NCBI GenBank assembly: GCA_025057635.1
Contig: JANXBD010000010.1
Coordinates: 1 to 35,909 of the forward strand
Length of the DNA stretch: 35,909 nt
Direction of reading: 5' to 3'
Source: Thermoflexus sp.
Lineage (GTDB): Bacteria > Chloroflexota > Anaerolineae > Thermoflexales > Thermoflexaceae
The translations under genes were made by a program, and so were the position numbers. Shown one piece after another: positions 3,351-23,210 of this stretch. The notes under the pieces are model-generated. The model saw only the letters and a program-made list of their open reading frames with translations, did not search any database and was not told the DNA's origin. The first letter of the stretch is position 1, and each line of letters begins with the position of its first letter.

Positions 3351-3358
3351 TCCCACAT

Positions 3359-3430
3359 GGGCGAGGCAGGACTCGAACCTGCGACCCTCCGCTTGTAAGG
3401 CGGATGCTCTCACCCCTGAGCTACTCGCCC
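3359..3430 (-). tRNA. tRNA-Val (anticodon TAC)
   Basis: The minus strand folds into a complete 72-nt cloverleaf. It has a 7-bp acceptor stem (GGGCGAG/CTCGCCC), a D arm with GCTC/GAGC, an anticodon stem TCCGC/GCGGA around loop CTTACAA, a 5-base variable loop, and a T arm GCAGG-TTCGAGT-CCTGC. Loop positions 34-36 read TAC, so it decodes GUA and probably other valine GUN codons. CCA is not encoded (ATG follows) and must be added by nucleotidyltransferase. Its first ten bases are also the last codons and stop of pth. Confidence 0.96.
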
Positions 3431-5945: not shown

Positions 5946-6120
5946 CGCTACGACCTGCGGGGCAGGGTGAGGCCGCCCTCGGGGCGGCCAATTCCCGACC
6001 GGCGGTGATGGAGGCGGTGGCTTGTCCCTCCTCAGCCCGCGAGCCGAGGCCCTTCGGCCAAGGCAGGACGCCGGTGTAAGTCCGGGGCCGACCGTATAGT
6101 CGGGATGGGAGCAGGTGGCG
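5946..6120 (+). promoter_or_regulatory. FMN riboswitch (RFN element)
   Basis: The conserved FMN aptamer blocks occur in order: GGGGCAGGGTGA (5959-5970), ATTCCCGACCGGCGGTGATG (5991-6010), AGCCCGCGAGCC (6034-6045), AGGAC (6064-6068), GGTGTAAGTCCGGGGCCGAC (6073-6092), and ATAGTCGGGATGGGAG (6096-6111). The outer stem is formed by CCTGC near 5953 with GCAGG near 6111. Variable arms are inserted at the two usual places. FMN binding normally lowers expression of riboflavin genes. Here the downstream genes are a permease, a lipoprotein receptor and an ATPase, so the element should shut off riboflavin import when FMN is sufficient. Two intrinsic terminators follow it. Confidence 0.95.
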
Positions 6121-20977: not shown

Positions 20978-21203
20978 CCTTTCTCGTCTCGTGGTTTTGG
21001 GGGCGCGGATCGCTGGAGGCCGTTCGCAATCCATGAACAGGAATCCCGATTGGGCCGTTGGGCAAAAAGGACGGACCAACCTGTGCTTGGAGCCAGCGCA
21101 TCGATCAGCGCCGCCGCTCGAGGGCGAGTCGTCGGGCAGTGATGCTGGGGTTCCCTTTGCCACTTCACAACCGGAAACGGCGATGGAAAGGAGGGGATCA
21201 CCG

Positions 21204-21587
21204 ATGAACGTTCTTCTTTGGATCCTGCAAGGCGTGTTGGGGGTCTATTTCTTCATCACCGGGATTGTCCATTTTATTGTTCCCCCCGGTCTGCCTGCCC
21301 CGATGGCCTGGATGTATGAGTTGCCCCCTGCCTTACATTATCTGAGCGGCACGGCCGAGATTTTGGCCGGACTGGGGCTGATCCTACCTGGTCTCACTCG
21401 CATTCAGACCCGCCTGATTCCTCTGGCAGCCCTCGGCCTGGTGCTGGTCATGCTGGGCGCAGCGATCTGGCATTTATCACGGAACGAGTTCCAAAGTATC
21501 GTTATGAATCTGATCCTCGGCGGGCTGGCGGGTTTCGTGGCGTATGGCCGGTGGCGATTGAGTCCGTTGAAAGAGGTGGGGAAATAG
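21204..21587 (+). CDS. DoxX-like membrane protein
   Basis: This 127-residue protein has four hydrophobic helices. ILQGVLGVYFFITGIVHF (about 6-24) is followed by HYLSGTAEILAGLGLILPGL (about 45-65), which matches the DoxX 'G.xEI.xGxxL' pattern. Further helices are at about 72-90 and 98-115. DoxX family members are small quinone- or redox-associated membrane proteins of mostly unknown role. The start ATG has a clear AGGAGGGG site; the open frame extends upstream but overlaps the ATPase gene. It lies 226 bases downstream of the P-type ATPase on the same strand. Confidence 0.8.
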   Translation: MNVLLWILQGVLGVYFFITGIVHFIVPPGLPAPMAWMYELPPALHYLSGTAEILAGLGLILPGLTRIQTRLIPLAALGLVLVMLGAAIWHLSRNEFQSIVMNLILGGLAGFVAYGRWRLSPLKEVGK

Positions 21588-21722
21588 GCTTTGCCTAACG
21601 GTTGTGATCATCCTTCACACCCTACAGGTTGCTTTCAAGCTCCTTGAAGAGGTTGGGGAGTAGGGCGTCACCAAGAGGAAGAAGTTGACGCCGAGGTCGG
21701 TCCTGTGCATGATCGATCTGTT

Positions 21723-21760
21723 GGCGCAGGCTGCCAGTCTCGCTGTTCTGGGCCTGCGCC
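21723..21760 (+). ncRNA. hairpin at the 5' side of a structured RNA candidate
   Basis: GGCGCAGGC (21723-21731) pairs perfectly with GCCTGCGCC (21752-21760), leaving a 20-base loop. It is the first of three stems in the 200-base element that ends at the terminator at 21886-21914. Confidence 0.45.
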
Positions 21761-21782
21761 CCCTGGGTGCGCCATCCCACAG

Positions 21783-21853
21783 AAAGGAGGTGATGCGACA
21801 TGGACGAAAAACGTTGGACAGACCGGAAGGAGGTGGGCCGTCGCATCACCTCC
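21783..21853 (+). promoter_or_regulatory. Shine-Dalgarno / anti-Shine-Dalgarno mimic switch
   Basis: AAAGGAGGTGAT (21783-21794) matches the full complement of the usual 16S 3' end and stands nine bases before an ATG. GGAGGTGATGCGAC (21786-21799) pairs perfectly over 14 bp with GTCGCATCACCTCC (21840-21853), which would hide the ribosome site. The same CACCTCC (21847-21853) can instead pair with a nearer GGAGGTG (21829-21835). The two helices exclude each other, as in an attenuator or thermometer. Confidence 0.5.
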
Positions 21854-21865
21854 GGTGAACGCTGA
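21800..21865 (+). CDS. 21-codon small ORF with a maximal ribosome-binding site
   Basis: The ATG at 21800 is preceded by an unusually complete Shine-Dalgarno sequence, and the frame ends with TGA 21863-21865. The peptide is basic and hydrophilic (MDEKRWTDRKEVGRR then ITSGER), with no membrane segment. Codons 14-18 are part of the stem that can mask the ribosome site. It could be a small protein, a leader peptide or just the reading of a structural RNA. Nothing lies downstream except a terminator and the convergent rpoD, so a leader role for a downstream gene is not supported. Confidence 0.4.
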   Translation: MDEKRWTDRKEVGRRITSGER

Positions 21866-21885
21866 TCTGCGACGGCCCGCCGGGA

Positions 21886-21920
21886 GAGGCCGCTTCCAAA
21901 CCGGGAGCGGCCTCTTCATT
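21886..21920 (+). terminator. intrinsic terminator, plus strand
   Basis: GAGGCCGCT (21886-21894) pairs with AGCGGCCTC (21906-21914), followed by TTCATTTCTC. It ends the small structured transcript or the DoxX operon. Confidence 0.75.
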
Positions 21921-22001: not shown

Positions 22002-23210
22002 TTACGTCAGGAACTCTCGTAACTGGCGGCTTCGGCGCGGATGGCGCAGGCGACGCAGGGCGCGTCCTTCGATCTGACGGATGCGTTCCCGTGTCAGTCC
22101 AAACTTCTTCCCCACTTCTTCTAGGGTGTAGCAGCGCCCATTCACCAAGCCAAATCGCAGCCGCAGAATCCGGGCCTCTCGAGGGCTTAAGGTGGAAAGG
22201 ATCTCCTCGATCTTCTCCCGAAGCAGGTTTTGGTAGGCGATCTGGTTCGGAGAGGGTGAGGACTCATCCTCGATGAAGTAACCTAGCTCGTCCTCTTCGT
22301 CCTCTCCTACGGGGTTCTCCAAGCTTAGGGGCTGCCAGGAAACCCGGAACATCCATTCTACCTTTCGAGGATCCACCCCCAGCTCGGCGGCAATCTCCTC
22401 CGCCGTCGGCTTGCGGCCCAAGCTCTGCTCTAGTTCATGGGCCACCCGATATAGTTTGCGAATTCGGTCACTCATGTGGACTGGAACCCGGATGGTTCGG
22501 CTCTGATCGGCAATGGCCCGGGTGATGGTTTGGCGGATCCACCACGTGGCGTAGGTGCTGAAGCGATATCCCCGTCGGTAATCGAACTTCTCCACTGCCT
22601 TCATCAGCCCTAAGTTGCCTTCCTGGATTAGGTCTAGGAAGGGCACTCCGCGGCCCATGTATTTCTTGGCGATGCTCACCACTAGACGCGTGTTGGCTTT
22701 AATTAGGTGCTCTCGCGCCTTGCGGCCCTCTTCGATCAGCCGTTCTAAGCGGGCCCGCTGCTGTGGGGAGAGCCGGTGGGATTCCTGCAGTCGTCGGGCG
22801 GCTTGCTGCCCCCGGAACACCTGCCGGGCTAGTCGCACTTCCTCTTCGCTGGTGAGCAGGGGCACACGAGCCATCTCCTTCAGATAGAGGCCAACAGTGT
22901 CGTTCACGTCGATGTCCGCCAGATCATCATCTTCTCCTAGGACAACATCGCTGGTTTCGAGGTGTTCTTCCGCTTCCTCCTCTTCTTCCTCCTCGATCTC
23001 ACGCAGGAAGCGCTCTTCTTCCTCAATGTTGATCCGCGAATCATCATACAGCTCGATTCCTGCCTCTTGCAGCCAAAGGCAGATCTCGTCCAGCTCCTCG
23101 GGGGACTCCTCAACTTCCGGGTAGATCTCTAGGATATCTGTGACGGTGAGGTAACCTTGCCGCTCCGCTAGGGAAAGAAGCTCTCCGAGAATTTCATCAA
23201 AGCTAGCCAT
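22002..23210 (-). CDS. rpoD: primary sigma factor (RpoD/SigA, sigma-70)
   Basis: The 402-residue protein has the housekeeping sigma layout. A short region 1.1 is at about 1-55. An unusually acidic linker (63-82, mostly Glu) follows, then region 1.2 ([22 protein letters not shown], about 103-124). Region 2 has [40 protein letters not shown] and [21 protein letters not shown], which melt and read the -10 element. Region 3 is present, and region 4 has [15 protein letters not shown] and the helix-turn-helix [28 protein letters not shown], which reads the -35. That match to group 1 factors, plus consensus TTGACR/TATAAT promoters in this window, supports the primary factor. It lies 26 bases after the DUF177 gene and shares its promoter. 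Confidence 0.95.

Follow-up and report, generated by a model that had tools for sequence, protein, structure and literature searches.

In translational attenuators of the ermC type, a short open reading frame (ORF) is combined with mutually exclusive helices, and the position of the ribosome hides or frees a Shine-Dalgarno (SD) sequence. The SD controlled there is a second one, belonging to a downstream gene, whereas the element described here contains one ORF only. The small RNA rnTrpL of Sinorhizobium meliloti also carries a leader-type ORF, and its leader peptide, peTrpL, was reported to act in trans (PMC7298713). While rnTrpL stems from a trp attenuator (PMC7298713), our element is without a downstream operon and its controlled SD is the ORF's own. 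In the CC2171 sRNA of Caulobacter (RF01867), too, a possible short ORF comes after AAAGGAGGUGAUC, but its fold is different and its score of 27.2 bits stayed below the gathering score of 75. Apart from tRNA, no Rfam family was found in the related loci scanned, nor was an account of such an element found in the open-access literature searched. We consider the element undescribed, its general kind (small RNAs that unite a short ORF with alternative folding) being known; that it constitutes a new class is the lesser chance.

A predicted small transcription unit convergent with rpoD

As read from the sequence, positions 21685-21920 of the window (the whole stretch of 35,909 nucleotides of Thermoflexus sp. 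DNA that was analysed) hold a complete small transcription unit with promoter, 5' hairpin, SD, mini-ORF and terminator. In the window genome it is predicted to be transcribed on its own, as an RNA of about 200 nt. Its features are the following:

21685..21713 (+), predicted sigma-70 promoter TTGACG-17-CATGAT (consensus scan)
21723..21760 (+), 5' hairpin, GGCGCAGGC at 21723-21731 with GCCTGCGCC at 21752-21760 (predicted fold)
21771..21779 (+), conserved GCYATCCYA box 5' of the SD (alignment of 81 sequences, several positions with 90% invariance or more)
21783..21794 (+), 12-nt SD sequence AAAGGAGGTGAT (match to the 16S 3' end, genome-wide count, invariant GGAGGT)
21786..21799 (+), arm A, GGAGGTGATGCGAC, 5' side of helix S1, which hides the SD (pairing conservation, predicted fold)
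21800..21865 (+), mini-ORF of 21 codons, MDEKRWTDRKEVGRRITSGER, stop TGA (frame open class-wide, in-frame indels)
21832..21845 (+), 5' side of helix S2, overlapping B (two-sided covariation at 11/12 pairs)
21840..21853 (+), arm B, GTCGCATCACCTCC, a mimic of the 16S tail (ATCACCTCC) and 3' side of S1 (alignment, pairing)
21868..21881 (+), arm C, 3' side of S2, starting 2 nt past the stop codon (covariation, permutation, predicted fold)
21883..21917 (+), intrinsic terminator (terminator prediction)

A preliminary description of this locus had proposed a 12-base complement to the 16S 3' end, a 21-codon ORF, a 14-bp stem between A and B, a preceding hairpin and a following terminator, and all five were located at the positions listed. 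The complement is exact over its full 12 nt to the 16S tail of the window genome (GGCTGGATCACCTCCTTT), and the ATG at 21800 stands nine bases past GGAGG and five past the 12-mer. The proposal of a self-contained unit also held: promoter and terminator are its own, the next gene after it, rpoD (a sigma-70-type factor, named from sequence), is convergent at 22002-23210, and the neighbours vary between genomes. The element region folds much better than shuffled sequence (z = -5.9). The -35 and -10 boxes are retained across 8 Thermoflexus copies, and in two of the genomes (G004 and G005) a hairpin of other sequence, as read by eye, occupies the position of the 5' hairpin; class-wide, leader folding is just mildly better than in shuffles.

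In a closed congener genome (G005) the 12-mer occurs at two sites only, the element and the antisense strand of the 16S gene, and in the other genomes searched its copy number was two to five. Another very strong SD, AAAGGAGGGGATCACC, is located in the window at 21187-21206 (+), directly 5' of an ATG at 21204 that opens a small, membrane-protein-like ORF; the same interval also holds the 16S-tail-like GGATCACC.

Distribution across Chloroflexota and beyond

Conservation of the stem in relatives had been set beforehand as a test of the preliminary description, and it was found: 7 of 8 congeners carry the element at 83-93% identity, a value that in most cases lies above that of the neighbouring rpoD stretch, and across the class to which Thermoflexus belongs A and B are paired in 89.7% of alignment cells. 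A distant copy from another family (L010) led to a first model, R1, with 118 matches in 396 class genomes; R1 alone underestimates prevalence, its seed having comprised few and closely related sequences. A covariance model, R2, was then built from an 81-sequence alignment that includes the window copy. At E <= 0.001, R2 matched 150/219 class genomes and 102/147 genera in many families, nearly always as a single copy, and about 31% of the 219 genomes were without a match at this threshold. The window copy, itself in the R2 seed, scored 58.2 bits (E 2.8e-14, one match) and has the marks of the family: near-fixed spacing from SD to ATG, an ORF of 15-21 codons, a B:C helix across the stop and single-copy occurrence. 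Other Chloroflexota classes gave matches with E values down to about 1e-7 and the same plan, while two matches outside the class (L176 and L181) look like false or different elements. Overall, we regard the existence of this element family as near certain.

Most copies also appear to be equipped as separate units. Promoter scores of at least 9/12 were found in 85% of 120 class-wide elements against 5% of shuffles, and a terminator follows 77% of them against 4% of shuffles. The genes further downstream, named from sequence only, include AIR-synthase-like and HNH-like genes, a regulator and others, and the locus comparison revealed no conserved neighbour or downstream operon across the class. 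Cis-regulation of rpoD or another gene was rejected, rpoD being convergent and the neighbours variable. We think it very improbable that the element is the relic of a leader-peptide transcription attenuator whose operon was lost. The leader-like ORF, the alternative pairing of A, B and C and the terminator would all suit such an origin, but the terminator stem lies beyond C and takes part in neither alternative, the class has no conserved downstream operon, and conservation is too wide for a relic.

Two further candidates were set aside. A mobile or viral origin disagrees with the roughly one copy per genome, and there was no convincing member among 52 viral pattern matches (best 18.8 bits). 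A general artefact of strong SD sequences was rejected after a loose pattern scan of the species genomes, which gave mostly unrelated coding matches. Among the matches listed, convincing R2 scores came from Chloroflexota loci and one Bdellovibrionales locus only.

Several other arrangements were observed among the weaker matches. About fifteen viral contigs (L309, L310, L311, L322, L327, L330, L333 and others) share what appears to be a single 51-base AAGGAGGTGATG...CATCACC stretch that scores only about 11 bits with R2. In two Desulfobacterota loci (L242 and L254), AAGGAGGTGATG...CATCACC pairs occur shortly 5' of a second SD and ATG, possibly an SD/anti-SD arrangement in a 5' leader. A metagenome-assembled genome labelled Nitrospirae (G745; loci L361 and L364) has several R2-weak loci in which AGGAGGTGATGTCAATGGACG precedes ORFs whose products begin with MDGGPSS or MDDGPAN; these may form a multi-copy group of ORFs with strong SD sequences.

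Exclusive helices around a translated-looking mini-ORF

Arm C pairs with 21832-21845 and thereby occupies the middle of B, so that A:B and B:C are mutually exclusive. The preliminary description had proposed a switch between an SD and an anti-SD mimic with two exclusive folds. The two folds stand, but the second uses arm C rather than 21829-21835, where the GGAGGTG named as alternative partner reads GGAGGCG in other Thermoflexus copies, a T-to-C change that breaks the pairing. The minimum-energy fold of the full-length RNA is B:C.

Covariation differed between the helices. S2 (B:C) exceeded all controls, with two-sided changes at 11/12 pairs, pairing in 97.4% of cells, 111 cells showing two-sided changes (20.5 in shuffles) and an own-partner score of 31.8 against 22.3 +/- 0.4 with permuted partners; as the sequences are related and kinship remains in the controls, these shuffle figures, like the binomial ones, are not true probabilities. 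The alignment thus strongly supports B:C. For S1 (A:B) the own-partner score was 26.5 against a maximum of 26.28 among 5000 permutations, and the clearest two-sided position was column 34 with 88; covariation is limited because arm A is nearly invariant. In the SLL lineage both S1 arms are altered and the helix is still predicted, although it is weak as an unbroken helix. A:B is conserved, yet nearly invariant, and part of its apparent support is complementarity that conservation of the SD alone could yield.

Predicted folding of growing transcripts is consistent with an exchange between the two helices. In lineages with B = ATCCCTCCTC or GCGCCGCCTCC, RNA cut after B is predicted to form A:B and longer RNA B:C. 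Across 120 loci, mean predicted SD accessibility was 0.24 before B, 0.06 through B and 0.22 through C; release is partial and often small, with a rise above 0.3 in 17% of loci only. We examined in the same energy model the suggestion, also made in the preliminary description, of an RNA thermometer in which heat melts A:B and frees the SD. An SD-hiding helix in a hot-spring genus invites such a reading, but in the A:B state predicted SD accessibility stays at 0.00-0.01 between 37 and 72 C, with 0.01 at the upper end. For the completed RNA the open state is already preferred at 37 C and remains so at higher temperatures, predicted exposure being similar over 37-72 C. The element is moreover spread over many families of the class, and we give a thermometer hardly any credence.

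The mini-ORF is as regular as the helices. An ORF of 15-21 codons is present in 120/122 distinct class-wide elements, the exceptions being L079, for which automatic start assignment settled on an inner ATG, and L109, with an early stop. The latter (genome G037) is alone among the class-wide copies in that its frame is stopped early, within B (MSDCSNAAP-stop), and is possibly decaying or recoded. In 108/117 sequences ATG and B are separated by a whole number of codons (distances of 27, 30, 33, 36, 39 or 42); the nine off-frame sequences belong to a few coherent lineages including Thermoflexus and, except in L109, their frame stays open as far as a stop next to C. Among 121 stops, 73 are TAG, 44 TAA and 4 TGA, against 107/245 (44%) TGA in neighbouring genes, and where C follows the stop TGA falls to 2/96. 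The window copy is one of the TGA exceptions.

This regularity could indicate a micro-protein gene, in which a serine-rich peptide of 15-21 amino acids is the product and the folds merely autoregulate its translation. Open frame and start/stop architecture are nearly universal, an M-D-x-S-S motif is widespread, and the N-terminal part shows a mild deficit of non-synonymous changes (65% against 79% expected, P = 0.017), a sign of weak purifying selection that leaves room for a functional peptide. On the other hand, the second half of the peptide follows the RNA arms, B being placed in another frame in the nine sequences from several lineages, and Thermoflexus substitutions in the mini-ORF, read by eye, are mostly non-synonymous. 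Serine makes up about 30% of residues at codons 2-8 class-wide and is encoded mainly by AGT (181/276), which is rare among serine codons of neighbouring genes, a bias that points to a constraint on the RNA. The peptide had no Pfam match. Taken together, we judge a micro-protein gene rather unlikely. The peptides are polar and serine-rich, not hydrophobic as expected of the toxin of a type I toxin-antitoxin mRNA.

A candidate relative in Bdellovibrio and a possible function

Outside Chloroflexota, R2 at E <= 0.01 matched 16/119 Bdellovibrionota genomes (best 2.9e-7), compared with 3/115 in Alphaproteobacteria (best 0.0025), the control class. The Bdellovibrionota versions may share descent with the Chloroflexota family. 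In Bdellovibrio bacteriovorus HD100, the single match below E 0.01 (G760, 535192-535288 (+), 20.6 bits, E 0.0076) lies inside the interval of APsRNA2, 535188-535321, on the same strand (+). G760 was equated with HD100 by a c-di-GMP riboswitch found within the published merRNA interval, and APsRNA2 is a published, transcribed small RNA whose level is 43-fold higher in attack phase, when the cells do not replicate (PMC3627812). Chance overlap with an sRNA seems unlikely, the eight published sRNAs covering, by our estimate, about 0.03% of the two strands.

Like the element, APsRNA2 has a 5' hairpin, AAGGAGGTGATGC, in which the first G of GGAGG stands 13 nt 5' of an ATG, a 15-codon ORF ending in TAG and a helix across the stop; its published start is 22 nt 5' of the SD, and a terminator is found just past its published end. 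Unlike the element, it belongs to a different phylum, its arms are largely other in sequence, and in the Bdellovibrio lineage the 16S-tail-like complement is positioned after the stop. The 20.6-bit match and the shared architecture make APsRNA2 a likely relative. It has been reported as a small non-coding RNA (PMC3627812).

The abundance of APsRNA2 bears on the idea of a ribosome trap or decoy, in which 30S subunits would be held by the 12-nt SD, perhaps while cells are not growing, and folding would control how much of it is exposed. Its rise in attack phase would suit such a role, as would the rarity of the full 12-nt anti-SD match, the sole one in the closed Thermoflexus genome besides the 16S antisense strand. 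However, APsRNA2 is far less abundant than merRNA, and a pure trap needs neither an in-frame ORF nor a stop-codon preference. We hold a trap to be improbable.

The reading we favour, with about even confidence, is that of an undescribed, class-wide and usually single-copy RNA gene encoding a translation-responsive two-state RNA with a mini-ORF. The function we infer for it is as follows. A:B would form first during transcription and hide the SD; once C is transcribed, B:C would outcompete A:B and free the SD, and the finished RNA could then load a 30S subunit. Each ribosome reading the mini-ORF would melt B:C, and one terminating beside C would let A:B re-form behind it, so that the RNA's state would serve as a readout of ribosome loading and termination. 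We think that this state rather than the peptide would be the output, because the B-coded half of the peptide shifts frame in several lineages, Thermoflexus among them; in these, B is retained as RNA sequence, and so are the openness of the frame and the place of the stop. A wider proposal, which we offer tentatively and regard as rather unlikely, is a new housekeeping-like class of regulatory RNA common to Chloroflexota and Bdellovibrionota. Such an RNA would sense, on its own mini-ORF, how ribosomes load and how they terminate with release factor 1, would switch between SD-hidden and SD-exposed states and would signal in trans.

Conservation as a single copy across the class, combined with absence from the Rfam and Pfam libraries searched, points to a basic, unrecognised function that is probably linked to translation. 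As TGA is strongly avoided and the position of the stop is fixed, termination at the mini-ORF offers a concrete clue that can be tested, and since the Bdellovibrio match overlaps a mapped sRNA, a cultured organism is available for such tests. Elsewhere in the window, two known RNAs were detected, an FMN riboswitch aptamer at 5949-6120 (+; 70.4 bits) and a tRNA-Val gene at 3358-3430 (-; anticodon tac).
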